Of a DNA stretch of 64,000 nucleotides, positions 1,738-63,983 are shown piece after piece (positions within the stretch are counted from its first letter, which is position 1; each line of letters opens with the position of its first letter). The position numbers and the translations under genes are program-made. The DNA lies in assembly GCA_945877575.1 (NCBI GenBank), contig CAMDUE010000007.1, positions 1 to 64,000 of the forward strand, in the 5' to 3' direction. Below the pieces are notes generated by a model. That model saw only the letters and a list, made by a program, of their open reading frames with translations, made no database searches and had not been told where the DNA came from. The stretch comes from Chitinophaga pinensis (lineage in GTDB: Bacteria > Bacteroidota > Bacteroidia > NS11-12g > UBA955).

Positions 1738-2742
1738 TTAGGATTTTTTGGGACGGATGATCAAAAAGACGGCTGCAAGTAGGAAGAACATCCCCACGTA
1801 AATATTCCAACTGAGGCTTTCGTGGTCGGCAAATCCCCAGAAAACAGCAGTGACTGGAATGATGAAAGTATTTGTAGAAGCCACTAACGATGAGACGTAT
1901 TTGATGATCCAGTTGAAAATGATCATGCTCACGGCACTGCCCATAAATCCCAAGAGAAACAAATAGAAAAAGGCCGAGTTAGCAGAAATATTTCCTTCGT
2001 CAAAGAAGCCAAATCCTTCTTGAAATAAACCTCCAGGATGTTTGTCCCAAGCGTCGAAATAGTTGGTTTGCGATAGAATGATGGTATAGATGATTCCTAC
2101 AGAAACAAAGGGATAAGCAGTCTTAACCATACCTGGAAGGTGAGATAATTTGTGCTTGATTATATTTATGTTAAGCCCGTATAAAAGGGCCGCCATCAGC
2201 GGAAGAGAAGCACCTAAAAGGTTGATGGGTTGACCGTAAGACAAAAGAGATGGTCCAAAGAGGAATATGGCTCCAACAATGCCCATAATTACCCCAATTC
2301 CCCCTTCGCGGGTAAATTTTTCTCTAAACAAAAATGCCGAAAAGAAGAGTGTAAATAAGGGGGTAAATGCATTGAGAATTCCCGAAAGGCCTGAAGGAAT
2401 GAGTCTTCCTGCATAAGAAAACAACAGAGCAGGAATGGCATTTCCGAGAACACCTGAAGCAATGAGCCAGAGATAGTCAGATTTTTCCAATATTTTTTTG
2501 CTGGAATCTAGTGGATCATTGGGTTTGAAGAAAGTGTATTTTAATACCCAAGGTAGCAAAACAGCACCGGCCAAAATCAAGCGTGTTCCCGCGACTTGTA
2601 AGGGGCTGAAGACCAAAAGTCCGCGTTTCATAAGTATGAATGAGCTTCCCCAAATACAACCTAAAAGGATAATTAAAACGGCGGGCAACCACGAATATTT
2701 CACGGTGCAAAAGTCGGTTAAATTTATGATTCGGCGCTGCAC
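1738..2742 (-). CDS. EamA/DMT-family transporter
   Basis: An integral membrane protein of 334 residues with about ten hydrophobic segments and the two-fold repeat of the drug/metabolite transporter (EamA) superfamily. The first repeat begins with the characteristic LGCIWGSSFILMKRGL. It probably exports a small metabolite; the substrate cannot be read from the sequence. The ATG at 2742 lies only 28 bp from the divergent M1 peptidase start. An in-frame GTG at 2703 begins the protein just before the first membrane segment and follows a near-consensus -7 box (GACTTTTG, 2708-2715), so the true start may be GTG 2703. Confidence 0.85.
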   Translation of the reverse strand: MQRRIINLTDFCTVKYSWLPAVLIILLGCIWGSSFILMKRGLLVFSPLQVAGTRLILAGAVLLPWVLKYTFFKPNDPLDSSKKILEKSDYLWLIASGVLGNAIPALLFSYAGRLIPSGLSGILNAFTPLFTLFFSAFLFREKFTREGGIGVIMGIVGAIFLFGPSLLSYGQPINLLGASLPLMAALLYGLNINIIKHKLSHLPGMVKTAYPFVSVGIIYTIILSQTNYFDAWDKHPGGLFQEGFGFFDEGNISANSAFFYLFLLGFMGSAVSMIIFNWIIKYVSSLVASTNTFIIPVTAVFWGFADHESLSWNIYVGMFFLLAAVFLIIRPKKS

Positions 2743-2770
2743 TGAATTTTATTTGCGAAATTTGTAAGAC

Positions 2771-4771
2771 ATGCGAATCTTCCTATGTTCATTAATCAGA
2801 ATACAGCCAACATTGATTCTGTTAATTTTGTTGGTCATAAATCCTGTTTTTGCGCAAGAAGAAACGCACATTCACGATGAAATTGTCTGTGCTGAAAAAG
2901 CCCAGTTTGAGGGAAGAAATTTGATTAAAAAACGGTCAGGTGAGATTGTTTTTCATGGATATGACATCATTTATCATCGCTGCGAATGGAAACTGAATCC
3001 CAAGAGCAATTCAAATATTGAAGGTCATATACTCTTTAAGTTCAAAGCTGATAATGATTTAGATTCTTTGGCTTTTGATCTGGTGAATGAACTTAAAATT
3101 GATAGCATTACTCGGAATGGGCAGTTTTTGTTTTACGAGCGCAAGGCAAATAGGGTCCTGGTTTGGAAAACAGCGTCAAAATCTTCTGTAAAATGGAATC
3201 AAAATAGCATTGATTCTTTCACAGTGCACTATAGGGGCAACCCCGCATCAGTTTCTGGCGGATTTGGATCGTATGTGTATGATAATCATCAGACTGGTCC
3301 CATCATTCATACCCTTTCACAGCCCTATGGGGCGCCTTTTTGGTGGCCCTGTAAACAGTCGCTGAACGATAAAATTGACAGCATTGATATTGTGGTTGAA
3401 ACGGCTTCAGATTTCAAAGTGGGTAGTAATGGAGTACTTCTAAGTACTACTCCTACGGTTCAAGGTTGGCATAAAATACATTGGAAACACCGTTATCCGG
3501 TGGCAACGTATTTGGTGGCGATAGCGGTTACCAACTATGCTGAATTCACAGATTATGCCAAATTTTGGAATAGAACAGATTCGTTGCCGGTGGTGAATTA
3601 CGTGTTCCCGCAGTTTCTGAACTCATCCAAAACCGAAGCTCAAATCACGTTACCCATGCTTCGTTTGATGGATAGTTTGTTTATACCGTATCCATATCCC
3701 CAGGAAAAATACGGGCATGCACAATTCACTTGGGGAGGAGGGATGGAGCACCAAACCATGAGTTTCATGGGGAATTTTTCGCGCGATTTAATAGCGCATG
3801 AGCTGGCCCATCAATGGTTTGGCGACATGGTTACCTGCGGAAGCTGGAACGATCTGTGGCTCAACGAGGGCTTCGCTACTTATTTGACCGAGGTTTGTTA
3901 TCAATACCTTGAGAACGATGATTCTTTCAAAAAGAAAATGCGCGCCATGAGGGCCAACATTACGGCTGACCCCAACGGAAGTGTAAAACCGGCCGATACT
4001 ACTCAAGTCAATATCTTGTTCAATGGTCGACTGACCTACAGAAAAGGCGCTTGGTTGTTGCACATGTTGAGGCATAAAATTGGTGATTCTTTGTTTTTCG
4101 AGGGATGTAGAAAGCATTTAAGCGGCTCACAAGCTTATGGATTTTCAACTACGGCAGCCTTTCAGGGCATCATGGAATCGGTTTCAGGTCAAAATTTGGA
4201 CACATTTTTCAAGCAATGGTATGAGGGTCAGGGGCATCCTGACTTAAAAATCAATTGGAAACAGCGAGGAAGAAAACTTGAGTTGAGCGTAGAGCAAACA
4301 CCTTCAAATTCAATGATGGGGTTTTGGAAAATTCCGGTACCAATGGAGTTTCTATCAAAGCCAAATTTTAGTGGGATCAGAACCAGTAAATATTTGGTTT
4401 TTTATCCGGATAGTTTAAGCAAGAATTATACGTTAGATATTGATTTTGCTTTAGATACGGTTGTTTTCGATCCCAAAGTTTCTGTCTTAGCAAAAGCAAG
4501 TGTGGGCGGAATTAATTTGGATGCGCAACAAAAAGAAGAAATCATTTTGGCACCAAACCCAGGTACTGATTTTCTGCAAATTTTTGCGAGAAATCCGGTT
4601 CTTAAGAAAGTTGAAGTGTATAACTCTATAGGTCAAATTGTATATTGTGAGTCTAGAGATTCCACTCAAACTTGGGTGATAAATGTTACACAATGGCCTG
4701 TTGGGCCTTATTTTACAAGGATTTACACTGATAATTTTGTATATTTGGGTAAATGGTTAAGAATAGATTAA
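2771..4771 (+). CDS. Secreted M1-family aminopeptidase with T9SS sorting domain
   Basis: A 666-residue metallopeptidase. Residues 1-29 form a signal peptide (hydrophobic core, cleavage after VFAQ likely). The M1 signature is complete: the exopeptidase motif GGGMEH at 322-327, the zinc motif HELAH at 343-347 and the third ligand Glu366 in NEGF. The last ~75 residues (APNPGTDFLQIF onwards) have the pattern of a type A T9SS C-terminal sorting domain, so the enzyme should be exported across the outer membrane and attached or released. It should remove N-terminal residues from peptides outside the cell. It is the first gene of a tight operon: the MbnP-like gene starts 19 bp before its stop. Confidence 0.93.
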   Translation: MRIFLCSLIRIQPTLILLILLVINPVFAQEETHIHDEIVCAEKAQFEGRNLIKKRSGEIVFHGYDIIYHRCEWKLNPKSNSNIEGHILFKFKADNDLDSLAFDLVNELKIDSITRNGQFLFYERKANRVLVWKTASKSSVKWNQNSIDSFTVHYRGNPASVSGGFGSYVYDNHQTGPIIHTLSQPYGAPFWWPCKQSLNDKIDSIDIVVETASDFKVGSNGVLLSTTPTVQGWHKIHWKHRYPVATYLVAIAVTNYAEFTDYAKFWNRTDSLPVVNYVFPQFLNSSKTEAQITLPMLRLMDSLFIPYPYPQEKYGHAQFTWGGGMEHQTMSFMGNFSRDLIAHELAHQWFGDMVTCGSWNDLWLNEGFATYLTEVCYQYLENDDSFKKKMRAMRANITADPNGSVKPADTTQVNILFNGRLTYRKGAWLLHMLRHKIGDSLFFEGCRKHLSGSQAYGFSTTAAFQGIMESVSGQNLDTFFKQWYEGQGHPDLKINWKQRGRKLELSVEQTPSNSMMGFWKIPVPMEFLSKPNFSGIRTSKYLVFYPDSLSKNYTLDIDFALDTVVFDPKVSVLAKASVGGINLDAQQKEEIILAPNPGTDFLQIFARNPVLKKVEVYNSIGQIVYCESRDSTQTWVINVTQWPVGPYFTRIYTDNFVYLGKWLRID

Positions 4772-11849: not shown

Positions 11850-13883
11850 ATGCCTGAATTCCAACTAGTATCCAATTTTGAACCCAAAGGCGATCAGCCA
11901 GACGCCATAAAACAGTTGGTTCAAGGAATTGAAAATGGACATAGGGCACAAACTTTATTGGGAGTTACTGGATCTGGAAAAACTTTTACCATAGCCAATG
12001 TAATAGAGCAGGTAAATAGACCTATCTTAGTTCTGTCACACAATAAAACGCTGGTTGCTCAATTGTATGGTGAGTTCAAGCAGTTCTTCCCCAATAATGC
12101 GGTTGAATATTTCGTGAGCTACTACGATTACTACCAACCCGAAGCATTCATTCCCACAACCAATACCTATATAGAGAAAGACCTTAACATCAACGATGAA
12201 ATTGAGAAAATGCGTCTGCGAACCGTTTCGACTCTTCTTTCAGGTAGGCGTGATGTCATTGTTGTGGCTTCTGTGAGTTGTATTTATGGTGCCGGAAACC
12301 CTTCAGATTATGAAAATACCATCATTCGCTTGAGCGAAGGGATGCATATTTCTCGTCAACAATTGTTGTATCGATTGGTTGAGAGTTTGTATTCTCGAAC
12401 CACTGTCGAATTTAAAAGAGGTACTTTTAGAGTTAAAGGCGATACCGTTGACGTGCATTTGGCGTACAACGACTTTGCATACCGCATCAGTTTCTTTGGG
12501 GACGAAATTGAGGAGATCTACAGTTTTGAACCAGAAACTGGCAGAAAGATTGATTCACTATTAGATTGTGCCATCTATCCCGCTCAAATTTATGTTTCGC
12601 CAAGAGATCGTTTGCAAGATGTAATTTACAAAATTCAAGATGATTTGGTGCTTCAAATGGAGTTCTTCCAACAGCAACAGCGATTTTTAGAAGCCAAACG
12701 TCTAGAGGAGAGGGTAAATTTTGACCTTGAGATGATTCGTGAACTGGGTTATTGCAACGGAATTGAAAACTACTCCAGGTATTTTGATCGCAGAAATCCG
12801 GGCGATAGGCCTTTCTGTTTGTTGGATTATTTTCCGAAGGACTTTTTATTGGTGGTAGACGAAAGTCACGTAACCATCCCGCAAATTCGCGCCATGTATG
12901 GCGGCGATAGAAGTCGAAAAATCAATTTGGTTGAATACGGATTTCGATTGCCAGCAGCCATGGATAACCGTCCATTGCAATTTGAAGAATTCTATTCGGT
13001 TGTCAATCAGTCTATTTATGTCACTGCAACCCCTGCTGAGTTTGAGATTGTAGAATCAGAAGGCGTCATTGTTGAGCAATTGATTCGTCCCACGGGTTTG
13101 CTCGATCCGGAAATTGAAGTACGTCCTTTAGATACTCAAGTGGATGACTTGATTGGAGAAATTGACGAGCGCATCAAGATGGGCGATAGGATTTTAGTAA
13201 CTACGTTGACCAAAAGAATGGCCGAAGAGTTATCGAAATATTTGGCCAGACTCAACATCAAAGTTGGTTATATCCACTCCGAAGTGAAAACATTGGAAAG
13301 GGTTGAAATTCTTCGAAACTTACGACTTGGTGGAATTGATGTTTTGATTGGAGTCAATTTGCTCCGCGAAGGACTGGATTTACCAGAAGTTTCTTTGGTT
13401 GCGATTATGGATGCAGATAAAGAGGGATTTTTACGCAGTGTTACAAGTTTGGTTCAAACCATTGGTCGTGCAGCGCGAAATGACCGAGGAAAGGTGATTA
13501 TGTATGCCGATAAAATGACTAAAAGTATGGAAATAACCATCCGTGAAACCAACCGTCGAAGGGAAAGACAAATGGAATACAATACGGAACACGGCATTAC
13601 TCCAAGGACGGTCAGAAAAACGCGCGAAGAGATTTTCAAACAAACATCGGTAGCTGATTCTATGGCATCTGACAACGATAAAGCATATAAAGTCTTCTTG
13701 GAAGATTCTGGAGCGGTTGCTGCAGATCCCATTGTTCAATTTATGGATAAAAACGCGTTGCAGAAAGCCATCCAAAAGACGGAAAAAGACATGTATAAAG
13801 CTGCCAAGAACATGGAGTTTATGGAAGCTGCTCGCCTGAGAGATGAGTTAGATGCTATGAAATTAAAACTTCAGGAAGTTTAA
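11850..13883 (+). CDS. uvrB: Excinuclease ABC subunit B
   Basis: A 677-residue DNA-damage recognition helicase of nucleotide excision repair. Visible are the Walker A motif GVTGSGKT at 38-45, the beta-hairpin region YYDYYQPEAFIP, the DESH box at 337-340, helicase motif VI QTIGRAARN, and a C-terminal UVR domain (FMEAARLRDELDAMK) that contacts UvrC. The start is set at ATG 11850 because the protein then begins MPEFQLVSNFEPKGDQP, as UvrB proteins do, and because the -7 box lies just upstream. A longer frame opening at 11799 is discarded. Its last bases overlap the convergent DUF4249 gene by 4 bp. Confidence 0.97.
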   Translation: MPEFQLVSNFEPKGDQPDAIKQLVQGIENGHRAQTLLGVTGSGKTFTIANVIEQVNRPILVLSHNKTLVAQLYGEFKQFFPNNAVEYFVSYYDYYQPEAFIPTTNTYIEKDLNINDEIEKMRLRTVSTLLSGRRDVIVVASVSCIYGAGNPSDYENTIIRLSEGMHISRQQLLYRLVESLYSRTTVEFKRGTFRVKGDTVDVHLAYNDFAYRISFFGDEIEEIYSFEPETGRKIDSLLDCAIYPAQIYVSPRDRLQDVIYKIQDDLVLQMEFFQQQQRFLEAKRLEERVNFDLEMIRELGYCNGIENYSRYFDRRNPGDRPFCLLDYFPKDFLLVVDESHVTIPQIRAMYGGDRSRKINLVEYGFRLPAAMDNRPLQFEEFYSVVNQSIYVTATPAEFEIVESEGVIVEQLIRPTGLLDPEIEVRPLDTQVDDLIGEIDERIKMGDRILVTTLTKRMAEELSKYLARLNIKVGYIHSEVKTLERVEILRNLRLGGIDVLIGVNLLREGLDLPEVSLVAIMDADKEGFLRSVTSLVQTIGRAARNDRGKVIMYADKMTKSMEITIRETNRRRERQMEYNTEHGITPRTVRKTREEIFKQTSVADSMASDNDKAYKVFLEDSGAVAADPIVQFMDKNALQKAIQKTEKDMYKAAKNMEFMEAARLRDELDAMKLKLQEV

Positions 13884-14782
13884 AATTCCTTTATTCTTAT
13901 TTCAGCACTGCGCACATCGCTGATACAGAAAAAGCCAGCAACCCCTCGTTCCATATTTTTATTCAAAGGAATGATGTTAGATTGAATATTTACTGGAGGA
14001 GTAGCAAATAAGCCGCCATTGTTACGTTCATTCACGATCAAATTGAACCAGAAAAATGCCTCTAAAGTGATGGAATGTACTTCAACGCGCACCTTTTCTC
14101 CGTCTCTGTAAGGCCTTAGAAATTGGTTGATTCCTGAAAATCTAATAGGGTAAATAAATAATCCTCCGTCTTGACCGTTAGAATTATTACCCATGTCTTG
14201 AGAGATGTTCAAATTTCTAATATCGTTGAGAAAGGTATCATTTCTGAAAGTTTTCACCCAATAAAAATTACCCATTCCAGGCAAATCATTGGCAAAAAGT
14301 TCTACGTATTTACCAGAGTCTATGAAGGGAGGTCCGTTTCCTTCTACAGGGACAGCGCTCAAACTGTCTATAACACTTACAGTTGGGTTCAATCGACAAG
14401 CACTGATTAGAGTATCACCACGATGAATGATGATTAAGGCGTATTGTCTGCCTACTTGAAAAGTATCTCCGGTGGAGGGTTTAGGTGTCCATTCATAAAC
14501 ACCGCTGTCTTTATGGATAAATGGGAAAATTTTAAAATTGCTAGCGCTGGTATCTGCAATGAGTACCGTTGCATCAGAAATAAAGGGCTCAGTTCCTGGG
14601 GTGGCAAAGTATGGAACACTCTCGGTTAGTGTGATTTGTTGGGTAGTATCTAGGTTGTTTACAAAAGCATCAACTACGATTTTCTTTTGTTTCTGGTCTA
14701 CGTTTACGTCAATAATGTCTTCGCACGAAGTTGATAAAAATCCAAAAGCTGATAATATGAATAACGCTCTAAGTAATTTCAT
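13880..14782 (-). CDS. DUF4249 family lipoprotein
   Basis: A 300-residue lipoprotein starting MKLLRALFILSAFGFLSTSC, with the acylated Cys at 20 followed by EDIIDVNVD. This is the usual N-terminus of DUF4249 proteins, which accompany TonB-dependent receptors in Bacteroidota and have no established function. The start at 14782 gives a clean signal peptide; the frame is open 16 codons further upstream, but that would bury the signal. Its ATG follows the TonB receptor stop codon after one base (TAACATG arrangement), so the two should be translationally coupled and work together at the outer membrane. Confidence 0.88.
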   Translation of the reverse strand: MKLLRALFILSAFGFLSTSCEDIIDVNVDQKQKKIVVDAFVNNLDTTQQITLTESVPYFATPGTEPFISDATVLIADTSASNFKIFPFIHKDSGVYEWTPKPSTGDTFQVGRQYALIIIHRGDTLISACRLNPTVSVIDSLSAVPVEGNGPPFIDSGKYVELFANDLPGMGNFYWVKTFRNDTFLNDIRNLNISQDMGNNSNGQDGGLFIYPIRFSGINQFLRPYRDGEKVRVEVHSITLEAFFWFNLIVNERNNGGLFATPPVNIQSNIIPLNKNMERGVAGFFCISDVRSAEIRIKEF

Positions 14783-52045: not shown

Positions 52046-52807
52046 ATGATAAAAAAAGGTTTAGTAGTTTTAGTGGTATCTTATTTTTTGGCTTTTTGCG
52101 GAAGTTCTAAAGACCAAGTCTATTTCACTGGTTTAAAAGATAGTACCATAATTGACTCAGTTTATTGGAGGGAAGTCATTATTCACAAAGGTGATCAATT
52201 ATCCATTACCGTTGCTAGTTTAAACCCTGAGATGGATCAAATTGTTAATCAAGCCAATTCAGTATCCGGCCAGTCTGCGGGGGGTGAAACTCAATCTGGT
52301 TATTTTGTAACTGAAAAAGGCATTCTAAACTTGCCTCGTGTAGGAAACTTAAAAGTAGAGGGAATGTCTCATGCGCAGCTCATTGATACCCTACAAATAC
52401 TTTATTCCCAATATACTAAAAGTCCAATTGTCTCAGTCAGACTAATGAATTTCAGGGTCACCGTTTTGGGTGAAGTTATGCATCCTGGCCAGTTAACATT
52501 TTCAACTCCAAATATTGATATATATCAAGCTATCGGCAAGGCTGGCGATATCACTCCTTTCGGGAGAAGATCAGACGTATTACTAATCAGGCAAACAGAT
52601 TCTTCAAGATTGGTTCATAGAGTAAACCTCTCTGATCCAAAAGTAATTCGCAGCTCGGTTTTTCAATTGCAATCAGGAGATTTAATCTATGTAGAGGCCA
52701 ATCAAACCAAGAAGAATTCAAGCAGTTTAACATTGCAATTATTCCCTGTAATCACTAGCGGAGTTACGTTAGTTGTTGCATTAATGGGTATTGTTGGAAG
52801 ATTTTAA
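52046..52807 (+). CDS. Polysaccharide export outer-membrane lipoprotein (Wza-like)
   Basis: A 253-residue lipoprotein (MIKKGLVVLVVSYFLAFC, Cys18). A Poly_export domain (WREVIIHKGDQLSITVASLNPE) is followed by SLBB-type repeats (VTVLGEVMHPGQLTFSTPN, QAIGKAGDITPFG) and a C-terminal hydrophobic helix (LQLFPVITSGVTLVVALMG) that could cross the outer membrane. Wza-type proteins form the outer-membrane channel for capsule or exopolysaccharide. The Wzc-like gene follows after 15 bp, as expected for a coupled secretion machine. Confidence 0.92.
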   Translation: MIKKGLVVLVVSYFLAFCGSSKDQVYFTGLKDSTIIDSVYWREVIIHKGDQLSITVASLNPEMDQIVNQANSVSGQSAGGETQSGYFVTEKGILNLPRVGNLKVEGMSHAQLIDTLQILYSQYTKSPIVSVRLMNFRVTVLGEVMHPGQLTFSTPNIDIYQAIGKAGDITPFGRRSDVLLIRQTDSSRLVHRVNLSDPKVIRSSVFQLQSGDLIYVEANQTKKNSSSLTLQLFPVITSGVTLVVALMGIVGRF

Positions 52808-52822
52808 ATAGTAAGTTAAATC

Positions 52823-55246
52823 ATGGAACCAAATCCACTAAATCCTGGACATGTTTACAAACAAACAGAATCCAAATTAGGGACAAGTAGCGCACTAAAT
52901 CCTTATGATATTGTTAGAAAGGTAATTTTACCCTTTTGGCCCATTTATGCGATTTCTTTGGTTATTGCCTTTTTTGCTGCTCGCGTCTATATTCGTTATC
53001 AGATTCCAGTTTTTCAAGTGTTTGGAAAGGTATTGCTTAAGGAAGATGGGGGTGCAGAAGGTGCCATATTAAAAGAGTTTGACATTTTTGCTGCACAGAA
53101 ATCAGTTGACAATGAAATTGAAATAATCCGTTCCTCAGATATCACTGGTAAAGTAGCTCGCAACTTAAATACGTACATTTCAATTCGTCAAGAAGGCAAG
53201 GTTAGAACAAATATTATGCCTTTCCATTTTGCCATCAATTTTGAAGCACTTGATGAAGACTCAATAATGTCTGCTAACAATTTAGAACTTGTATTCAACT
53301 CCGACAGAAAGTCGTTCACAATTTCCGGTACGAAATACCCTCTAAAGGATCAGATTATTACTATCAATGGAACATCGTTTCAATTGACAATAGACCAGTT
53401 GCTTGCATCTCAAGTCAATTTCAACACCCCTTATTATTTATCTATTAGAGATATAAAAGCTGAAACTGCTAGAATTTCAAATGCTGTAACTGCGGCTCAA
53501 GTGGGCAAAAAAACTACCATTATTGCAATTACATATAGCGATCAAAATGTCGAAAATGCACAAAAGATATTGAATGAAGTTGTTGATGTCTACACAAATT
53601 CTTCTGTGGCAGATAAGCGACGTTCGGCTCAATTCTCGCTAGATTTCATAGATCAAAGACTTCGACTTATCAATGGAGAATTGGATAGCGTTGAAAGGAA
53701 TATTGAACAATATAAGTCAGCCAATGGAATTTATGATATCAGCTCTCAAGCGAATTTGTACTTATCCTCTGTCAAAGAAACTGATCAAAAGATAGCGGAA
53801 TTGGATTTGCAATTATCTGTATTAGCGGATATTGAAAACTATATTAATCAGAAACAAAACACAACTGGAACCGTTCCGTCTGTTATGGGTTTCAATGAAC
53901 CCTTATTAAGTGCCTTATTAAGTAAATTATACGATTTAGAAACTGATTTAAGCAAGAGAAAAAAGATTTCGGGGTATCAAGACGAAACCTATGTTACTCT
54001 AGAAGAGGAAATAATAAAAACCAAGCGCAGCATTAAGGAGAATATTCGAAACATTAGATCTAACTTAAATATTGCCAAGATAAATTACACACAACAATCC
54101 GGCGAAAAAAATGGATTGCTAAGTGCAATTCCGGCAAAGGAGCGGACTTTGGTTGACATTTCTCGGCAGCAATCAATAAAAAATGAGATTTACACTTTTT
54201 TGTTAGAAAAACGCGAAGAGTCAGCAATATCGTTTGCAGCAACGGTTTCAGATATAAGAATCATTGAGAAAGCTTTCGGTGGATCACAAATTGCCCCTAA
54301 ACCTTCAATGAATTATGTATTTGCTTTCAGTATCAGCTTCATAATTCCATTTTTATTCGTTTACTGGTGGGTTCTATTAAATCCAAAAATCAAATTCCGC
54401 GAGGACATAGAATCTTTAACCGAGATTCCCATCATTGGTGAAATCATGTATGACAATCAAAAGCGAAGCATTATTGTGGGCATCAAGGATAGAGGAATTA
54501 TCGCAGAATCTGTTAGAAGTATTCGGACAAAGATATCTAATTTTCGATGGCAGAATAAGAAATCAGTACATACTATTTTAGTTTCTTCATCTGTTCCCGG
54601 GGAAGGTAAAACTTTTGTGAGTATCAATTTAGGAATCAGTTTCAGTTTATCGGGTCAAAAAGTGGTTTTGATTGGTGCAGATATGCGAAAGCCAACGCTG
54701 CATAAACCATTTAATTTACAAGCAAGAAATGGTTTAAGTGCTTATTTATCTGGGGCAAATGATTTAGATTCCATTATATATCCAACAGAATATGATGGAC
54801 TTTCGATCATCCCGTCAGGCGTTATTCCACCGAATCCAACAGAATTATTTGAATCAGATCAGATGGAAGTTTTTTTCATAGAATTAAAGAAACGATTTGA
54901 TATTATTTTAATAGATACTCCTCCATTAGGGCTTGTCTCTGATGCTGAATTGATTGCAAAGTTTGTAGATATGAGCATATTTGTGGTTCGACAAAATAAA
55001 ACACATAAAGATGCCATTGTTGAGGTTATTGAAAAAGCTAGAAAAACAGGATTGTTTCCCAATATTTCTTTGATTTTTAATGGTTTAAAACCAACGGGAA
55101 TTGGACGCTATGCGTATTACGGTTATGGTGGATATGGTTACAGTGGTTATGGTTATGGAGGATATAACTACGGATATGGTTATTATGGAAGTGGGGTGAA
55201 GAAAACGGGATATGGGTATTTTTTAAAGAAGATTTTTAAGAAGTGA
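52823..55246 (+). CDS. Polysaccharide co-polymerase / tyrosine autokinase (Wzc-like)
   Basis: An 807-residue inner-membrane protein. A Wzz-type chain-length domain (~30-510) has membrane segments near 34-53 and 495-515 and a periplasmic coiled coil. The cytoplasmic BY-kinase has Walker A VPGEGKT at 591-597, Walker A' ADMRKP (Asp620) and Walker B ILIDTPP (Asp698). The tail from 761 onward is Gly/Tyr-rich with 15 tyrosines, the expected autophosphorylation cluster. It should control polymer length and export together with the Wza-like lipoprotein. Confidence 0.94.
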   Translation: MEPNPLNPGHVYKQTESKLGTSSALNPYDIVRKVILPFWPIYAISLVIAFFAARVYIRYQIPVFQVFGKVLLKEDGGAEGAILKEFDIFAAQKSVDNEIEIIRSSDITGKVARNLNTYISIRQEGKVRTNIMPFHFAINFEALDEDSIMSANNLELVFNSDRKSFTISGTKYPLKDQIITINGTSFQLTIDQLLASQVNFNTPYYLSIRDIKAETARISNAVTAAQVGKKTTIIAITYSDQNVENAQKILNEVVDVYTNSSVADKRRSAQFSLDFIDQRLRLINGELDSVERNIEQYKSANGIYDISSQANLYLSSVKETDQKIAELDLQLSVLADIENYINQKQNTTGTVPSVMGFNEPLLSALLSKLYDLETDLSKRKKISGYQDETYVTLEEEIIKTKRSIKENIRNIRSNLNIAKINYTQQSGEKNGLLSAIPAKERTLVDISRQQSIKNEIYTFLLEKREESAISFAATVSDIRIIEKAFGGSQIAPKPSMNYVFAFSISFIIPFLFVYWWVLLNPKIKFREDIESLTEIPIIGEIMYDNQKRSIIVGIKDRGIIAESVRSIRTKISNFRWQNKKSVHTILVSSSVPGEGKTFVSINLGISFSLSGQKVVLIGADMRKPTLHKPFNLQARNGLSAYLSGANDLDSIIYPTEYDGLSIIPSGVIPPNPTELFESDQMEVFFIELKKRFDIILIDTPPLGLVSDAELIAKFVDMSIFVVRQNKTHKDAIVEVIEKARKTGLFPNISLIFNGLKPTGIGRYAYYGYGGYGYSGYGYGGYNYGYGYYGSGVKKTGYGYFLKKIFKK

Positions 55247-55247
55247 T

Positions 55248-56333
55248 TTGAATACAAATGAATTAAAATTAGCCATTATTGGTGGCGATTTTCCGCCTTC
55301 TAACTCTCCTAGGGCGATTAGAATTTTTAATTTGGTTTCTGGTTTAGCCCCTTATTTTGAGAGGATTAATGTTTATTTGCCAAATGCACCAATAAATAAT
55401 TTGAATGCCGAAAAATCTAATGTGAAATTTTATTCATTTGGGCGAAATATAAAATTTACGTTTCGTGGCACGTTTGGTAGAATATTACAAAGAATTTTTA
55501 ATTTGTTATTCGACTATCCAGATATCAATTTTTTCTTTTGGTTAAAGAATTATCGTCATGTTTTAGATTCTGATGTAATACTTACCATTGGCGTTCCCCA
55601 TTCAATTCATTGGGGAATAAATAAATTGCTTAGAACATGTAATAAAAAGATTTATTGGATTGCTGAATCAAGCGATCCTTTTTTCACAAAAGGCATGGAT
55701 ATTTTTCCTAAGCCATTTTATTTTCGATTTCTAGAGCGTTCCTTTTTAAATAAGGTTGATAAAGTAATCGTTCCATTTGAGGGTGCCATTGCTGCATATC
55801 CTAGATTTTCCAAATCAAAATTCAGTGTAATTCCACAAGGTTTTGACAGCGCATATATTTGCAGTTTTCGAAACGAAAATGTCAATAATTCTATCTTTAC
55901 GTTTGGGTATGCAGGAACTTTATACAAATTTGGTAGAAATCCTTCAGAATTTTTAAAAAAGGCAATAAATTCTAAATTTAATTTTAAATTTTATTTAATA
56001 GTAAATAATTTAGATTTAATACCTTCTGAATGTTTAAGTGATGAACGATTTATTATTCAGAATTTAATGCCTCGAGAAGATGTTTATCGATTGCTAGCAG
56101 GTATGGATTGTATTTTGAATTTTGAAAATTATTCAAAAACGCAGAGCCCTTCTAAGATCATTGAATATTCATTCTTGGGTCGGCCTATATTCACAGTTAA
56201 TTTGGAAATTGATGGTGATGTTTTTATTGATGAACTACTATCAGGCAATAGAGAGCCCATTCAAATCAATAGTTCTGAATACGATAATAAACAAATAATC
56301 GATAAATATATTTCTCTATTTAGAATGGAATGA
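55248..56333 (+). CDS. Glycosyltransferase, GT-B fold (GT4-like)
   Basis: A 361-residue protein. The N-terminal half opens with LAIIGGDFPPSNSPRAIRIF, typical of GT4-like enzymes. The C-terminal half has FGYAGTLYKFGR and QSPSKIIEYSFLGRPIF, matching the nucleotide-sugar-binding region with its conserved Glu. It probably adds one sugar to the lipid-linked repeat unit; donor and acceptor are unknown. It starts with TTG at 55248, one base after the Wzc-like stop codon; the nearest ATG is out of frame. The base composition is visibly more A+T-rich than in the genes before it. It overlaps the polymerase gene by 4 bp. Confidence 0.82.
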   Translation: MNTNELKLAIIGGDFPPSNSPRAIRIFNLVSGLAPYFERINVYLPNAPINNLNAEKSNVKFYSFGRNIKFTFRGTFGRILQRIFNLLFDYPDINFFFWLKNYRHVLDSDVILTIGVPHSIHWGINKLLRTCNKKIYWIAESSDPFFTKGMDIFPKPFYFRFLERSFLNKVDKVIVPFEGAIAAYPRFSKSKFSVIPQGFDSAYICSFRNENVNNSIFTFGYAGTLYKFGRNPSEFLKKAINSKFNFKFYLIVNNLDLIPSECLSDERFIIQNLMPREDVYRLLAGMDCILNFENYSKTQSPSKIIEYSFLGRPIFTVNLEIDGDVFIDELLSGNREPIQINSSEYDNKQIIDKYISLFRME

Positions 56334-57583
56334 GTGTTAACTCATTATTGCTTTTATTAATTTGGCCTTTCGCCTCATTTTTGTCCTTATTTCGGGGTAA
56401 AATAGATATTGAATTTCGAAATGTTTTTTGGTTTTTATGTGTTTTTTTTGGTTTTGGATTTGTGTTGAAAGGAGACGTAGGGGATAGTTACAGATATGCT
56501 GAGGAATTAAAAGAAATAAACTTTAAAATAAAATTAGGGTTTAGTTTTATTGATTTATTAAGTCTTATTTATACTCAATATTCTGACCCATTTAGTCCAA
56601 TAGTAACTTTTATAATTGCCTATTTTACCCCTGACTACCGCTTTTTGTTTGGAATTTATGCATTGTTTTTTGGTTATTTTTATTCAAGTAATATTTTTAT
56701 TATATTGAATAATTTGAATAAAGATATATCTACAAAATTAAAATATTTAATATTTGCTTATTTGTTACTTATTCTCCCAATATGGGAAATAAATGGTGTT
56801 AGAATGTGGACGGGGTTTCACGCTGTTTTTTATGGTCTTTTGAAATCTAAAAATAGTCTATTGGACAGGGCATACATTCTTTTTGTTCCACCTTTTTTTC
56901 ATTCAAGTTTTTTCATATTTTCTGCAATTTATTTGATTGCTGTTTTGGGGCAGAAATATATATCTTTAAAACTTATAAGGATTGTATTTTTGTTGTCTAG
57001 TTTTGTGGTGTACACTGGATTTAGATTTACTTTTGAGCAAACAGCTTTTATTGGGGATTTAGGATCAGGTGGAAGTGAACTTCTGGAGGGTAAAACATCT
57101 GCTTACAATAATGAATATGATCTTGAATTAGAACAATCTAGTTGGTTTTTAAATTGGAGTGCCGAATTCTCGAGACAGATTAATTTAATTTTAGCTGTAG
57201 GCTTATTTATTTTCATACGAACTGATAAATACAATATTTTTGGTTCAATTAGTTCAAGAGAATTATTTACTATTGGTTCAATTGTTTCTTTGATTGCTCT
57301 TCATCCAAGTATCTCATCTGGACGGTTTTTGGTTTGGATTACGTTTATTGGTTCATATATTTTCATTCAAGAATATGAAAGTCGAAAGGGTTTATTTTAT
57401 TATTTATTAGAAATTGCTATAGTCATTTTCATCTTGTTTATTTTAGTAATAAAAATTCGTTTTGGATTTGAATTTTTTAATTATGGGTTTTTTTTAGGCA
57501 ATTTATTTTCTATTTATTTTCTTGGAAATGATATTTCTATGTTAGACTTTTATTATGCGTTATTCGGAAAGTATAGTTCTTAA
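56330..57583 (+). CDS. Polysaccharide polymerase-like membrane protein (EpsG/Wzy type)
   Basis: A 417-residue protein with about ten membrane segments. GDVGDSYRYAEELKEI near the N-terminus, INGVRMWTGFHAVFYGL and FHSSFFIFSAIY resemble EpsG-family polymerases, which join repeat units in the periplasm. The family call rests on topology, a few motifs and position between a glycosyltransferase and AsnB, because such proteins diverge strongly. It is extremely A+T-rich, which suggests horizontal acquisition of this part of the locus. Its ATG overlaps the preceding stop (ATGA). Confidence 0.75.
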   Translation: MSVNSLLLLLIWPFASFLSLFRGKIDIEFRNVFWFLCVFFGFGFVLKGDVGDSYRYAEELKEINFKIKLGFSFIDLLSLIYTQYSDPFSPIVTFIIAYFTPDYRFLFGIYALFFGYFYSSNIFIILNNLNKDISTKLKYLIFAYLLLILPIWEINGVRMWTGFHAVFYGLLKSKNSLLDRAYILFVPPFFHSSFFIFSAIYLIAVLGQKYISLKLIRIVFLLSSFVVYTGFRFTFEQTAFIGDLGSGGSELLEGKTSAYNNEYDLELEQSSWFLNWSAEFSRQINLILAVGLFIFIRTDKYNIFGSISSRELFTIGSIVSLIALHPSISSGRFLVWITFIGSYIFIQEYESRKGLFYYLLEIAIVIFILFILVIKIRFGFEFFNYGFFLGNLFSIYFLGNDISMLDFYYALFGKYSS

Positions 57584-57589
57584 GCAAAC

Positions 57590-59365
57590 ATGTGTGGACT
57601 AGGATTTAGTATAGTAAGTGAGGCATTAAGTAGACCGCGTGAATCACTTACTGATAGAATTGAACACCGTGGACCAGATTTTAATGGTTCAAAGAAGTTC
57701 TGCTATAGTTTGAATGAGACTGGCAAACAATTTTCATTAAGCTTTAGTCACCGAAGGCTTGCTATTACCGATTTTTCGAGTTTAGCTAATCAGCCATTAA
57801 TTGTTGATGATCAATTTATTATCATCTTTAATGGTGCAATATTTAATTACAAAGAGTTAAGAGGTATTCTACAATCTCTTGGAGCCAACTTCGTTACTGA
57901 TTCTGATACTGAGGTTATAGTTCAAGGATATAAGTTTTATGGCTTAGATGTTTTTAAGAAATTACAAGGAATGTGGTCTATTGTAATTTGGGATAAGCTT
58001 TGTTCTTCGGTTTATTTCAGCCGTGATCCATTTGGTATCAAACCGCTATTTTACTACCAAAAAAATCATGAGTTTTACTGCTTTTCAGAGGTAAAGCAGT
58101 TACTAGATATTGTAAATTTGAGTGTAAATGATGATTCATTAACTTACTTTTTGAATTATGGTGTTACCAATTTTGGTAATGAAACATTATTCAATGGGAT
58201 ATTTGAGTTTGAATCTGGTTTTGTCTATGAGTTTGATTTAATAACTGAAAAATTAGAAAAAAGAGAGAGTGTAATCTGTGAGGCAAATTTAATTGGCTTA
58301 GATTATAGTAAAAGTTTAAATAATAATTTGTCATCAGCTTTTAATGCTGATGTTCCATATTCGGTTTCTGTCAGTGGTGGATTGGATTCAAGTATACTTG
58401 CTTATTTAGGAAAGCAGGCAACAAACAAACCTCACAAGAATACTGTATATACTTCAGTTTCGTCTGATTCATCTAATTCTGAAGAAATCTGGGCTGAACA
58501 AATTACAAACGAGTTAGGTTTTAATCTAGTGAAAGTGAGAACAGATTTTTTTGATTTTAAGAATCATCTTCCTCAAATTATTTATCACCTTGAAACTCCT
58601 ACTCAATCGATGAGTGCATATTTTAACTATTTTGTTTATCAATCCATGAAAAAAGACGGTGTGAAAATGTCTTTTTGTGGGCAAGGTGCTGATGAACTAT
58701 TTGGTGGATATAGTCAATTTCAATATGCTCGATTTTTTAATTTTTTACCAAGATTCATTGGGAACCCACTAAGTCGAATTTTAGATGTTTTGCTTAGTTT
58801 TTCTTGGCGTCATACTCATCATCCTATTTTAAAATATAAGTCTCATAAAAGAATTGAACATTTTTTTAAAAAAGTAAAGAAACCATTTTTCAATTTAAAT
58901 GATGTGATTGATTACTTTTTATTGAAAGATCCTTTACCAAGGTATTTGCATTGGGAGGATAGATTATCTATGGCACATTCGATTGAATCAAGAGTGCCTT
59001 TTTTACAGCAAAGTATTTATTTGTTAGCGAAGGATGTACCTTGGAGACTAAGATATAAACAAGGTTTTACGAAGTATATTTTGAGGAAAACATATAAAGA
59101 CAAAATTTCTGATAAAATACTTTTTAGAAAGGATAAAAAGGGTTTTGCAAATTCAGAACAGTTTTGGATTTTAACAAAATACTCAGCAGACTTTCGAGTG
59201 TTATTGTTGGAAAACTTGGAATATCTAAGTGATTATATCCATATTGAATCAGCTATAAAAGGATACGATCAAATGGTTGTAAATCAACATTATGATCCTA
59301 TTTATTGGAGAATTATCCAATTGGGTCTATGGCATCGAACCTTTATTAATAAATTAGTTTCTTAA
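57590..59365 (+). CDS. asnB: Asparagine synthase (glutamine-hydrolysing) family amidotransferase
   Basis: A 591-residue two-domain enzyme. Cys2 (after removal of Met) is the class II glutamine amidotransferase nucleophile in MCGLGFSI, and IEHRGPDFNG follows. The synthetase domain has the PPi-loop SGGLDSS at 262-268 and the ATP region GQGADELFGGYSQF. In polysaccharide clusters, AsnB homologues often amidate sugar acids rather than make free asparagine; that role here is inferred from position. A uronic acid source (ugd) lies in the neighbouring block. Confidence 0.9.
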   Translation: MCGLGFSIVSEALSRPRESLTDRIEHRGPDFNGSKKFCYSLNETGKQFSLSFSHRRLAITDFSSLANQPLIVDDQFIIIFNGAIFNYKELRGILQSLGANFVTDSDTEVIVQGYKFYGLDVFKKLQGMWSIVIWDKLCSSVYFSRDPFGIKPLFYYQKNHEFYCFSEVKQLLDIVNLSVNDDSLTYFLNYGVTNFGNETLFNGIFEFESGFVYEFDLITEKLEKRESVICEANLIGLDYSKSLNNNLSSAFNADVPYSVSVSGGLDSSILAYLGKQATNKPHKNTVYTSVSSDSSNSEEIWAEQITNELGFNLVKVRTDFFDFKNHLPQIIYHLETPTQSMSAYFNYFVYQSMKKDGVKMSFCGQGADELFGGYSQFQYARFFNFLPRFIGNPLSRILDVLLSFSWRHTHHPILKYKSHKRIEHFFKKVKKPFFNLNDVIDYFLLKDPLPRYLHWEDRLSMAHSIESRVPFLQQSIYLLAKDVPWRLRYKQGFTKYILRKTYKDKISDKILFRKDKKGFANSEQFWILTKYSADFRVLLLENLEYLSDYIHIESAIKGYDQMVVNQHYDPIYWRIIQLGLWHRTFINKLVS

Positions 59366-59367
59366 TT

Positions 59368-60462
59368 TTGAAAAACAATCTGATAACATTTGAATCTGAT
59401 GACTGGGGCAGTTTAAGATTGGAAAATCTTTCAACCGTTGAAAGTCTGAAAAATGCTAATATCCCTACCCATACTTGCGGGGCAGGCTTCTTTAATGAAT
59501 TTGATACATTAGAGTCTTCTGAAGATATTAAATTACTGTCAGATGTATTAATTCAAAATTCCAATTTACACTGTACCCCTAAATTTACTTTTTTACAACT
59601 AACGTCTAATCCTGACTTTGATAAAATTAAAGAATCTAATTTTACTCAGTATTTTAATCACTCTGTTGAAGTAGATTATCTGAAATATGGAGATGAAAAT
59701 TATTTATACAATTTAAAAGAATTAATAAGTAAAGATATTTTTTCTCTTGAATTTCATGGAAGGGAACATCTAAATGTTCCTGTTTGGATGCGATACTTGC
59801 AGTTGAATGACAGCAATACACGTACTGCTTTTGATTTGAAGTATTGGGGTTATGATAATATCAATCAATATTCTGTTTTTTATAATTCAGCGTATGATGT
59901 AGAATCGAAAAAGGATATTTCAATGTATGTTGATATTTTAATTGATGGAATACATAAATTCAAGGAATTGTTTGGAATTCAACCAATCTATTTTGTTCCT
60001 CCAACAGGAGGAATGAATTCCGCTTACTTGAAACCATTATCCGATAATGGAATAAAATTGGTTCATTCTGCAAGAATACATATAGATAGTTTGGGTGAAG
60101 GTAAAAAGAAGAAGCTCTTCAGAATTCCTGGAACTAAAAATAAATTTGGTCAGAGATATATAAAGAGGAATTGCTTTTTTGAACCAGCAGACAAATCAAA
60201 GGATTGGGTTAAATCTTGCTTGTGTGAAATTGAGCATGCGTTTAAATACAATCAACCAGCTGTAATTTCAACACACAGGGTCAATTATGTTGGAAGAATC
60301 CGTAAAGATAATAGACAAAACGGTTTAGATAAACTGTCAGACTTATTAAGTCAAATAAATGAGCGTTGGCCCGAAGTTAATTATCTTCATACTAGAGATT
60401 TGTTTAATTATTACGAAAATAGGCGTTGGGATTTAAAACAATTAATAGGAGTAATTAAGTAA
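59368..60462 (+). CDS. Divergent NodB-like (CE4) polysaccharide deacetylase family protein, copy 1
   Basis: A 364-residue protein without signal peptide or membrane segment. It keeps the layout of carbohydrate esterase family 4: the acidic motif SDDWG (Asp11-Asp12), the metal-binding pair His130 and His134 in FHGREH, a FVPPTGG motif in place of RxPxG (~210), and STHRVNYVGR near residue 300. It should remove an acetyl group from a sugar, but the family is distant enough that this is inference. It begins with TTG at 59368, forced by homology since the SDDWG motif lies only 9 residues in. The next gene is its paralogue, 6 bp away. Confidence 0.7.
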   Translation: MKNNLITFESDDWGSLRLENLSTVESLKNANIPTHTCGAGFFNEFDTLESSEDIKLLSDVLIQNSNLHCTPKFTFLQLTSNPDFDKIKESNFTQYFNHSVEVDYLKYGDENYLYNLKELISKDIFSLEFHGREHLNVPVWMRYLQLNDSNTRTAFDLKYWGYDNINQYSVFYNSAYDVESKKDISMYVDILIDGIHKFKELFGIQPIYFVPPTGGMNSAYLKPLSDNGIKLVHSARIHIDSLGEGKKKKLFRIPGTKNKFGQRYIKRNCFFEPADKSKDWVKSCLCEIEHAFKYNQPAVISTHRVNYVGRIRKDNRQNGLDKLSDLLSQINERWPEVNYLHTRDLFNYYENRRWDLKQLIGVIK

Positions 60463-60468
60463 AGTAAT

Positions 60469-61599
60469 TTGAATAGGCCGTTAATAGTTTTTCAGTCAGA
60501 TGATTGGGGTACACAACGAATTCCTTCAGGAATAGAATCTAAAATCCAGTTTGATTATCTAAATGAATTTCTTCAATTTGATACTTTGGAAGATAAAGAT
60601 GATCTAGATAATTTAAAGTGGGAAGTTGAGAATATAGCTACTCAAATTTGTAAGCCAGTAAATTTTACTCTAAATATTGTTTCAGGAAATCCCAATTTTT
60701 CGAAAATAAGGGCGAACGATTTCCAAAAGTACTTTGTACAGGATTTAGATCAGAGTTATTCATATTACGGATTTAATCAAGCCCAAATTAAAGTACAGTG
60801 GTTTCATATTTCAAATTCTGCTTCTTTTGATCTTCAATTCCATAGTAGGGAACATGTAAACTCACAATTATGGTTAAAAGCACTTCAAAAAAGAGATCAA
60901 ATGACAGAAGCTGCATTTGATTTGGGTTTCTGGGGGCTTTCAACTAATTATACTAGGACTAGTCATAAAAGTTTTATGGCTACTTGGGATGAAAAGCCAA
61001 TGGAGACGGATGAATTAAATTTTAAAGAAGGCATTAAACTCTTCAAGGATTATTTTAACATCAAACCAATTTCATTTGTACCTAATAATTATATTTTCCC
61101 AATTGGAAATATAAAATTTGTTGAGAAAAATGAAATAAAATCAATTCAAGGTAGAGAATATTTAATCCAGCCTCAAAAATCTAAATTTTTTAGATTTCGG
61201 AGGAAGGTTCCCAGGAAAATGGGCAATATCGAAATCGGGTCAAATAGTTTGATTTCTATTGTAAGGAATGTTCAATTTGAGCCATCGAAAGATTTATTTT
61301 CAAACAAACATAATGAGTCATTTACTCCTCAAATAGATTTAGCAATGAATCAAATTAACTTGGCAATAATGAAAGGATTACCTGCTGTTATTGATACTCA
61401 CAGGGTAAATTATGTTGGTGGTAGAAATGAACAAAATAGAGACTACGGACTGCAACAATTGAGAAAACTAGTGGAAATGAACAGAAGTACATTAATGAGG
61501 CTTTCGAATCCAATTGGGTTGCTCCATTGGGTAAGAATATTGACGAATTTGAAAATCAAGTTTCACAATATACTGGTACGAAATATGCGGCAGCCGTAA
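60469..61599 (+). CDS. Divergent NodB-like (CE4) protein, copy 2, with an aberrant C-terminus
   Basis: A 376-residue paralogue of the preceding protein: SDDWG (Asp11-Asp12), FHSREH with His125 and His129, AFDLGFWG, FVPNN, and DTHRVNYVGG near residue 308. It starts with TTG at 60469. Similarity to copy 1 stops around residue 335 (GLQQLRKLV); the last ~40 residues are read out of frame through the N-terminal codons of the downstream aminotransferase gene. Its true C-terminus (copy 1 ends with a WPEVNYLHTRDLF-type segment) appears to be lost, which suggests a deletion fusing the two genes. Function of the shortened protein is uncertain. Confidence 0.65.
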   Translation: MNRPLIVFQSDDWGTQRIPSGIESKIQFDYLNEFLQFDTLEDKDDLDNLKWEVENIATQICKPVNFTLNIVSGNPNFSKIRANDFQKYFVQDLDQSYSYYGFNQAQIKVQWFHISNSASFDLQFHSREHVNSQLWLKALQKRDQMTEAAFDLGFWGLSTNYTRTSHKSFMATWDEKPMETDELNFKEGIKLFKDYFNIKPISFVPNNYIFPIGNIKFVEKNEIKSIQGREYLIQPQKSKFFRFRRKVPRKMGNIEIGSNSLISIVRNVQFEPSKDLFSNKHNESFTPQIDLAMNQINLAIMKGLPAVIDTHRVNYVGGRNEQNRDYGLQQLRKLVEMNRSTLMRLSNPIGLLHWVRILTNLKIKFHNILVRNMRQP

Positions 61600-62567
61600 C
61601 TACTGGAACAGCGGCCCTGCAGTTAGCACTTAGATTGGTTGGAGTTTCAAGAGGTGATTATGTTATCTGCCAAAGTTTTACTTTTGTAGCATCTGCGAAT
61701 GCTATCCTATATCAAGGTGCGCAGCCTATTTTTGTTGATTCTGAAACAAAAACTTGGGGCATGGATCCAGAACTTTTAGAAAAAGCAATTCTGCATTGTA
61801 TGTCCCTCGAAAAGAAACCAAAGGCCATAGTGCCGGTTCACTTGTATGGAATGCCGGTGAATATGGTGGAAATTATGCGAATTGCTAAGAAATACAGAAT
61901 TCCTGTAATTGAAGATGCTGCTGAGGCTTTGGGTTCATCAATTAACGGAAAGATGTGTGGTTCATTTGGAGATTTTGGCGTCATTAGTTTCAATGGAAAC
62001 AAAATAATTACCACGTCTGGTGGTGGAATGTTGTTATCTGACAATCCCAAGAAGATAGAGAAGGCTAAATTTTTAGCGACTCAAGCTAGAGAGAACTTTC
62101 CTCACTATCAGCATGAAGAGATGGGTTATAATTTCAGAATGAGTAATGTTTTGGCTGGAATTGGAAGAGGCCAAATGGAGGTATTGAACGAACGAATTGA
62201 GAGTAGAAGAAGTAATTTCAACTACTACAAGGAAAAGCTCGGTCAAATACCTGGAATTTCGTTTTTAAAAGAATTAGAAGGAAGTATTAGTAACAGGTGG
62301 TTAACCATAATTTTGTTAGACCCAAAACTCACCGGGGGCATAGGACGAGAAGACCTGAGATTTGCATTGGCTGATGAGAATATAGAATCTCGTCCACTTT
62401 GGAAACCAATGCACATGCAACCATTATTTGAGAGTGCGCCATATTTTGGCAAGGGCATAGCAATGAAATTATTTAAACACGGTTTGTGTTTACCAAGCGG
62501 CAGTAATCTAACCAATGAAGAATTGGATAGGGTTATTGACGTAATTATTAATGTTATTAATAATTAA
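61527..62567 (+). CDS. DegT/DnrJ/EryC1/StrS-family aminotransferase, N-terminus damaged
   Basis: A PLP-dependent sugar aminotransferase, 346 residues from TTG 61527. GTAALQLAL, VPVHLYGM, EDAAEALGS and the Schiff-base Lys159 in FNGNKIITTSGGG are present. The reading frame stays open upstream to 61440, and 61470-61526 encodes SGNEQKYINEAF, then SNWVAP, the normal N-terminal region of this family. No ATG, GTG or TTG lies there, so the native start seems to be gone. Starting at 61527 removes conserved residues; an ATT at 61458 is another possibility. The gene overlaps the CE4 copy 2 frame by 73 bp, which is abnormal. Confidence 0.8.
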   Translation: MGKNIDEFENQVSQYTGTKYAAAVTTGTAALQLALRLVGVSRGDYVICQSFTFVASANAILYQGAQPIFVDSETKTWGMDPELLEKAILHCMSLEKKPKAIVPVHLYGMPVNMVEIMRIAKKYRIPVIEDAAEALGSSINGKMCGSFGDFGVISFNGNKIITTSGGGMLLSDNPKKIEKAKFLATQARENFPHYQHEEMGYNFRMSNVLAGIGRGQMEVLNERIESRRSNFNYYKEKLGQIPGISFLKELEGSISNRWLTIILLDPKLTGGIGREDLRFALADENIESRPLWKPMHMQPLFESAPYFGKGIAMKLFKHGLCLPSGSNLTNEELDRVIDVIINVINN

Positions 62568-62588
62568 AATTTATAAAAAGAACTAAGG

Positions 62589-62596
62589 TAATTTTG
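62589..62596 (+). promoter_or_regulatory. -7 box TAATTTTG for folA-nadK
   Basis: A perfect TAnnTTTG box 5 nt before the folA ATG at 62602; it marks the end of the polysaccharide region. Confidence 0.65.
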
Positions 62597-62601
62597 CCTT
62601 A

Positions 62602-63096
62602 ATGAAAATCACACTTATTGCTGCAATTGGTAAAAATAATGAATTAGGTTCTAACAATACATTATTGTGGCATATACCGGAAGATTTTCAATGGTTTAAA
62701 TCTAAAACTATGGGTAAAACCATGGTTATGGGTAGGAATACCATGGAAAGTTTGGGTAAACCCTTGAAAAATAGAGAGAACTGGGTTTTAACCCGGGATT
62801 TAGACAGAGTTAAAGAAGGGTTCCAAGGGTTCACAACCTGGGAAGCTGTGTTTGATAAAGCTGCTGAGAATCAACTCAGTGAACTAATGGTAATTGGCGG
62901 GGCGGAGATTTATCGTCAAGCAATAGATTTTGCAGATGAATTAATCATCACCCATGTCCAAGCTGAATTTCCTGAGGCTGATGTGTTTTTTCCAAATATA
63001 GATTTACAAATTTGGAGGGAATTTGAAACAGTAAATCTAACTGAATCAAACGAAACTAAATTTCAATATAGTTTTGTAATTTACAGAAAATTGTAA
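62602..63096 (+). CDS. folA: Dihydrofolate reductase
   Basis: A 164-residue NADPH-dependent enzyme that regenerates tetrahydrofolate. It has IAAIGKNNELGSNNTLLWHI at the N-terminus, with the usual Trp-His and acidic Glu (PEDFQWF). TMVMGRNTMESLG and MVIGGAEIYRQAI (NADPH binding) follow. The length is normal. nadK follows after 5 bp, so an NADP supply gene is probably on the same transcript. Confidence 0.96.
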   Translation: MKITLIAAIGKNNELGSNNTLLWHIPEDFQWFKSKTMGKTMVMGRNTMESLGKPLKNRENWVLTRDLDRVKEGFQGFTTWEAVFDKAAENQLSELMVIGGAEIYRQAIDFADELIITHVQAEFPEADVFFPNIDLQIWREFETVNLTESNETKFQYSFVIYRKL

Positions 63097-63101
63097 ATCA
63101 T

Positions 63102-63983
63102 ATGAAAATAGGCGTATTCTCGAAGTCAATAAATGATCCGAAACATCGAGATGCACTGCTCGTTTTAGTTAGGATTTTACAAAAACGAGGTCATGAGATT
63201 TGGACAACACCATCGTTGGAGGATTTTATACGAATGAACCACGATGATATTTCGCCTTTGGTTTTTGATGAAGTTGAGGGGATTGGAAAACCCATCGATT
63301 TTTTGTTTAGTATTGGTGGTGATGGAACGGTTCTTGAATCATTAAAAATTGTAAAGTCAAGTGAGGTTCCAATTTTGTCGATAAATACTGGTAGGTTGGG
63401 ATTTTTAACGGGTGTTGGTCTTAGCGAGTTGGAAGATGCTATAGAGCGGATAGAATTAGGGCAATATATTCTTGAATCACGCTCATTATTGCATTTAGAG
63501 TCATCGGAGAAGGTGTTTAATTTCAATTTTGCATTGAACGACTTTGTAGTTCACAAGAAGGAAACTTCAAGCATGATAGTAGTTCATGCTTATTTAAATG
63601 GGGAGTTTTTAAATTCTTATTGGAGCGATGGTTTAATTCTTTCTACACCGACGGGTTCAACGGGCTATAGTTTGAGTTGTGGTGGACCTATTTTGTTTCC
63701 TAAGTCTGATAGTTTTGTTTTAACACCCATAGCTCCGCACAATCTGAATGTTAGGCCCGTGGTAATTCCAGATGATGCTGTAATTTCCTTTGAGATTGAA
63801 GGAAGAGCAAATTCCTATTTAACCAGTTTAGATTCGCGAAGCCAAAGTATTACAAAAGATGTAACAATGGCAGTAAGAAGGGCTGATTTTGTTTTGAAGT
63901 TATTGAGATTGAATGATACCAACTTCATGGATAACTTACGTTCGAAATTGAATTGGGGATATGATAGGAGGTCAGAAAATTGA
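63102..63983 (+). CDS. nadK: NAD kinase
   Basis: A 293-residue cytosolic enzyme that phosphorylates NAD to NADP. GGDGTVLES has the catalytic Asp74, followed by NTGRLGFLTGV, the NDFVVHK-type loop and TPTGSTGYSLSCGGP. It is complete, ending 17 bases before the window edge. It lies 5 bp after folA in the same direction. Confidence 0.96.
   Translation: MKIGVFSKSINDPKHRDALLVLVRILQKRGHEIWTTPSLEDFIRMNHDDISPLVFDEVEGIGKPIDFLFSIGGDGTVLESLKIVKSSEVPILSINTGRLGFLTGVGLSELEDAIERIELGQYILESRSLLHLESSEKVFNFNFALNDFVVHKKETSSMIVVHAYLNGEFLNSYWSDGLILSTPTGSTGYSLSCGGPILFPKSDSFVLTPIAPHNLNVRPVVIPDDAVISFEIEGRANSYLTSLDSRSQSITKDVTMAVRRADFVLKLLRLNDTNFMDNLRSKLNWGYDRRSEN

Follow-up and report, generated by a model that had tools for sequence, protein, structure and literature searches.

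Toward its right-hand end, the window (the whole 64,000-nt stretch of DNA that we analyzed) carries two NodB-like genes on the forward strand, followed by an aminotransferase gene, folA, and nadK. The first, NodB1 (59368-60462), begins at a TTG codon and encodes an intact protein of 364 aa with 45-47% identity along its length to copies in two congeners, G012 and G006. In the PDB, an AF2 model of NodB1 (pLDDT 90) matched both polysaccharide deacetylases and GH57 enzymes. The best Foldseek hits were 3RXZ (E 3e-6), 3QBU (4e-6), and ArnD 8T0J (1e-5), although GH57 enzymes scored alike and TM-scores were moderate (0.4-0.6). By its predicted fold, which resembles that of the NodB/CE4 and GH57 superfamily, NodB1 is a member of the deacetylase superfamily, at a level that does not reach the family; its conserved DD, HGREH, and HR residues resemble NodB motifs. 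NodB1 has no Pfam match, and none of the six NodB-like members that we examined matched a polysaccharide deacetylase profile among Pfam, NCBIfam, or PDB sequences, the only profile matches being weak ones to GH57. The name "NodB-like" is thus supported by the modeled fold rather than by a sequence profile, and deacetylase activity is a prediction.

The two adjacent NodB-fold proteins (59368-60462 and 60469-61473), neither of which matches Pfam or NCBIfam, represent an unnamed deacetylase/GH57-fold family that occurs in five of the 108 genomes of its order. Within the genus (14 genomes), it was found in the window genome (G000), G006, and G012. In G016, one NodB-fold gene lies directly 5′ of an initiating sugar transferase. 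We also noted that the NodB1 gene at the start of G012 contig 16 (L035) has its first 150 codons nearly repeated at the end of contig 24 (L144), which suggests that the two contigs of this draft adjoin or that strains vary.

NodB2 is a single open frame that runs from a TTG at 60469 to a stop ending at 61599. Its N-terminal ~335 codons (60469-61473) survive, with 44% identity to the G012 NodB2 up to 61473. In alignments with NodB1 and the paired copies found in G012 and in G006, the similarity ends at ...NRDYGLQQLRKLV, whose last base is 61473, in agreement with the preliminary description, which had the resemblance to the first copy stopping near this point. The remaining 41 codons (61474-61599; EMNRSTLMRLSNPIGLL...) are an out-of-frame reading of aminotransferase DNA and have no counterpart among NodB C termini, as local scores against true C termini were 13-14. 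Counting the residues that lie beyond this point in the relatives, ~22-24 codons of NodB2 are gone. The truncated protein would retain its probable catalytic residues but, judging from the NodB1 model, not the strand and helix with which the predicted fold ends.

The aminotransferase (61470-62567, forward strand) lies in the -1 frame relative to NodB2. From 61470 this frame reads SGNEQKYINEAFESNWVAPLG and encodes SGNEQKYINEAFESNWVAPLGKNIDEFE..., a DegT/DnrJ/EryC1/StrS aminotransferase. When profile scans were started at 61479, PF01041 matched from profile position 8 (E 5e-97, 325.8 bits) and the LegC model TIGR04181 from model position 12 (E 3e-117). The frame is open for 365 codons and unbroken to its end, and the domain includes the PLP lysine: the catalytic-lysine region, NGNKIITTSGGG, is intact, and GNKIITTSGGG is present. 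The match to LegC-family/PglE-like nucleotide-sugar aminotransferases extends over the whole remaining length (E 7e-100), with the PLP-lysine region conserved. The closest solved structures, 1O61 and 4ZTC, are listed only as aminotransferases and correspond to Campylobacter jejuni PglE. As both the window protein (391.5) and its intact G012 orthologue (408.8) fall below the TIGR04181 LegC cutoff of 420, the product is not fixed, and we call the protein only LegC/PglE-like. PglE makes a 4-amino sugar that is then acetylated by PglD (PMC8040287). Among the 14 genomes, close orthologues occur only in G012 (73% identity) and G006 (70%), the next best match in the genus being ~43% identical.

What distinguishes the window copy from the PglE/LegC family is the absence of its start and first ~12-32 codons. 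A stop lies directly 5′ of 61440 in the aminotransferase frame, and no ATG, GTG, or TTG occurs in 61440-61526, a stretch described previously as having no usable start codon. The ORF list and homologue alignment place the first remaining in-frame start, a TTG, at 61527-61529, 19 residues into the remaining conserved core. We compared the window copy with 82 homologues from public genomes and congeners. All 82 have an in-frame start 5′ of the point equivalent to SGNE, and nearly all carry (K)IWLSSPHM[GS]G or close variants there; the window aminotransferase is the sole copy without both the upstream start and the IWLSSPHM-type N terminus. The missing start is therefore neither a family norm nor chance, and we rejected a natural overlap typical of the family. 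Initiation at TTG 61527 would drop E4, A11, F12, N15, W16, A18, and P19, residues conserved in 75-80 of 80 homologues.

The two similarities meet within 4 nt, bearing out the earlier proposal that the C terminus of one protein and the N terminus of the other are missing at a single point. The NodB2 similarity can be followed securely as far as the leucine codon CTA (61468-61470) and plausibly one codon further, to GTG (61471-61473). That to the aminotransferase is secure from AGT-GGA (61470-61475). The bases at the junction, AGTG (61470-61473, forward strand), can be read as part of NodB codons CTA-GTG and aminotransferase codons AGT-GGA and fit both ancestral genes. From the sequence, AGTG could be a 4-nt microhomology, with a true overlap of 0 to 4 nt. 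Because a scan of genome contigs gave no relative above ~63% identity, the exact ancestral breakpoint bases and the microhomology length are not fixed. The longest word of the junction region that is repeated within the window is 12 nt.

We next compared the locus with those of congeners. In both G012 and G006, NodB1, NodB2, and the orthologous aminotransferase are all intact and keep the order and strand seen in the window. In G012 contig 16, NodB1 (22-1116) and NodB2 (1118-2242) are followed by a HisC-like transaminase gene (2244-3347) and then by genes for a HAD phosphatase, a TupA-like ATP-grasp protein, two glycosyltransferases, an initiating sugar transferase, a PglD/NeuD acetyltransferase, an SDR, a KAS III, a second SDR and KAS III, and a GT9, before the aminotransferase (13510-14700). 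An FAD oxidoreductase gene, folA, and nadK lie 3′ of the aminotransferase. G006 contig 1 follows the same plan but also carries an ACP gene, and its glycosyltransferases are a different set. Both relatives share the single-strand order NodB1, NodB2, HisC-like ... aminotransferase, FAD oxidoreductase, folA, nadK. As in bacillosamine-type pathways, the aminotransferase of the relatives shares its cluster with an initiating sugar transferase and with a PglD/NeuD acetyltransferase. In the relatives, NodB2 extends 22-24 residues past the junction point, the aminotransferase has 30-32 residues before it, and the junction-equivalent points are 11,435 bp (G012) and 10,663 bp (G006) apart.

The outer neighbors in the window match those of the relatives, with Wza-/Wzc-type genes (named by position and appearance) upstream and folA-nadK downstream, and the interval genes are absent. 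The right flank, folA (62602-63096) and nadK (63102-63983), is common to all three genomes in the same order, with 49-51% identity to G012 and G006 for folA and 70% for nadK. The FAD/NAD(P)-binding oxidoreductase gene that both relatives carry between the aminotransferase and folA has left no trace in the window (62567-62602); the proteins of G012 and G006 are only 38% identical to each other, and a relative is encoded elsewhere in the window genome (G000 contig 1, 202020-203396). What remains of the cluster at 52046-61473 comprises Wza-/Wzc-like genes, one glycosyltransferase, a polymerase-like protein, AsnB, NodB1, and NodB2; compared with the larger G006 cluster, no initiating sugar transferase or flippase is recognizable in this segment.

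The lost genes do not appear to have moved. Queries with the G012 HisC, sugar transferase, PglD, SDR, and KAS III proteins recovered only distant paralogues in G000 (≤36% identity), with partial, weak matches of 24-26% for HisC and PglD. When HisC and PglD were searched for in all 14 genus genomes, strong orthologues came only from G012, which had supplied the queries, and from G006, whose proteins (53% and 48% identity) serve as a positive control for the search. The window genome is the only one of the 14 that has the flanking genes without the HisC/PglD middle. A G006 flippase query matched no other congener, G012 and G000 included, which makes the lack of a flippase in the window genome a weak sign of decay at most.

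Together, the gene order and contents of two congeners, the missing gene ends, and the absence of HisC and PglD from the rest of the genome argue that a single recent deletion of ~11 kb broke both junction genes, a reading we hold with good confidence. A single deletion of intervening DNA had been the explanation favored in the preliminary description, and the relatives supply what it predicts: a normal C terminus, intervening genes, and a start codon. The case concerns one genome of the species. G012 and G006 do not have identical cluster contents, so they give only an approximate ancestral interval and an approximate length for it in this species, and more than one event may have occurred within it. 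Under the opposite polarity, the compact arrangement would be the ancestral one, and inserted DNA would have come to separate NodB2 from the aminotransferase in the relatives; the variability of cluster contents across the genus could be cited in favor of this. However, such an insertion must simultaneously have given each gene its right missing end, the 82 aminotransferases and other NodB copies have these ends in the same complete form, and no conserved compact arrangement of the two genes was seen in outgroups. We give this possibility hardly any credence.

Another explanation is that the arrangement is functional, with a working aminotransferase produced either as a NodB2 fusion through programmed -1 frameshifting, an alternative raised previously, or by coupled restart at TTG 61527. 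The open aminotransferase frame and intact catalytic-lysine region would be compatible with this, but the NodB2 frame contains no X XXY YYZ slippery heptamer between 61441 and 61600, and a shift of frame cannot restore the missing N-terminal motif, leading us to reject programmed frameshifting. A fusion would be missing the strand and helix that close the NodB fold at its C terminus as well as the transferase N-terminal motif, restart at the TTG would sacrifice the conserved residues listed above, and in the relatives the two are separate, complete genes ~11 kb apart, with neither fusion nor overlap conserved. A functional arrangement is therefore very improbable. We assign a slightly smaller chance to the idea that translation of the two out-of-frame genes, through coupled restart at TTG 61527 or a low-level frameshift fusion, yields a working unit, in which case the deletion would have produced a compact new gene pair for polysaccharide modification and not two pseudogenes.

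To place the deletion in time, we examined divergence of the aminotransferase. The window protein is 73.0% identical to that of G012 and 69.5% to that of G006, and these two are 71.7% identical to each other. Since it is no more diverged than the orthologues are from each other, the gene was constrained until recently. At 62 near-invariant sites it carries two unusual changes, and against 80 outside homologues its identity averages 57.1, slightly below the 60.3 and 59.0 of the G012 and G006 orthologues, which would indicate at most a mild relaxation of constraint. As the protein is not accelerated within the genus and the frame is open, the loss either is recent relative to the divergence of the species or, with lower probability, reflects an assembly error.

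Sequence error had been among the earlier alternatives. In the form of a few wrong bases it is insufficient and was rejected, because ~22-24 codons of NodB2 and ~12-32 of the aminotransferase are missing and the genes lie 11 kb apart in the relatives. A larger assembly error, in which the chromosome keeps the ~11 kb and the assembler joined the flanks or followed a minority strain, is unlikely but is the main rival: the draft assembly consists of 30 contigs, and the aminotransferase shows no accelerated decay within the genus. Against it, the remainder of the assembly, with an estimated completeness of 99.9%, lacks the HisC and PglD markers, the ancestral sites share no more than ~4 nt, the junction sits within a 137 kb contig, and the 12-nt repeated word is too short for graph collapse.

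Under the deletion model, one recent event of roughly 10.7-11.4 kb would have taken out the center of an exopolysaccharide/capsule cluster and left the 5′ portion of NodB2 running, one base out of frame, into the 3′ portion of the LegC/PglE-like aminotransferase. Like the spontaneous deletions surveyed in Salmonella (PMC3411829), this would be a loss of contiguous DNA that joins two sites on the same strand. That survey applied a cutoff of at least 8 bp of shared sequence for verified deletions and a 5 kb threshold; the window event differs in that the shared sequence, no more than ~4 nt, is under the cutoff and the interval exceeds 5 kb. The AGTG junction is compatible with illegitimate recombination, which may have been blunt or guided by up to 4 nt of microhomology. 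Both remnants would then be nonfunctional pseudogenes.

Deletion within a variable polysaccharide locus is a well-known general phenomenon, and the event is biologically ordinary, though well preserved and instructive. It offers a clean case, resolved almost to the base, of a surface-polysaccharide cluster that recently lost genes. For annotators, both ORFs at the junction would be best treated as remnants and not as a natural overlap or fusion. Both the initiating sugar transferase and the acyl-amino-sugar module of this cluster appear to be gone from the genome, which matters for predictions of surface chemistry, and the original polymer is probably no longer produced from this locus.
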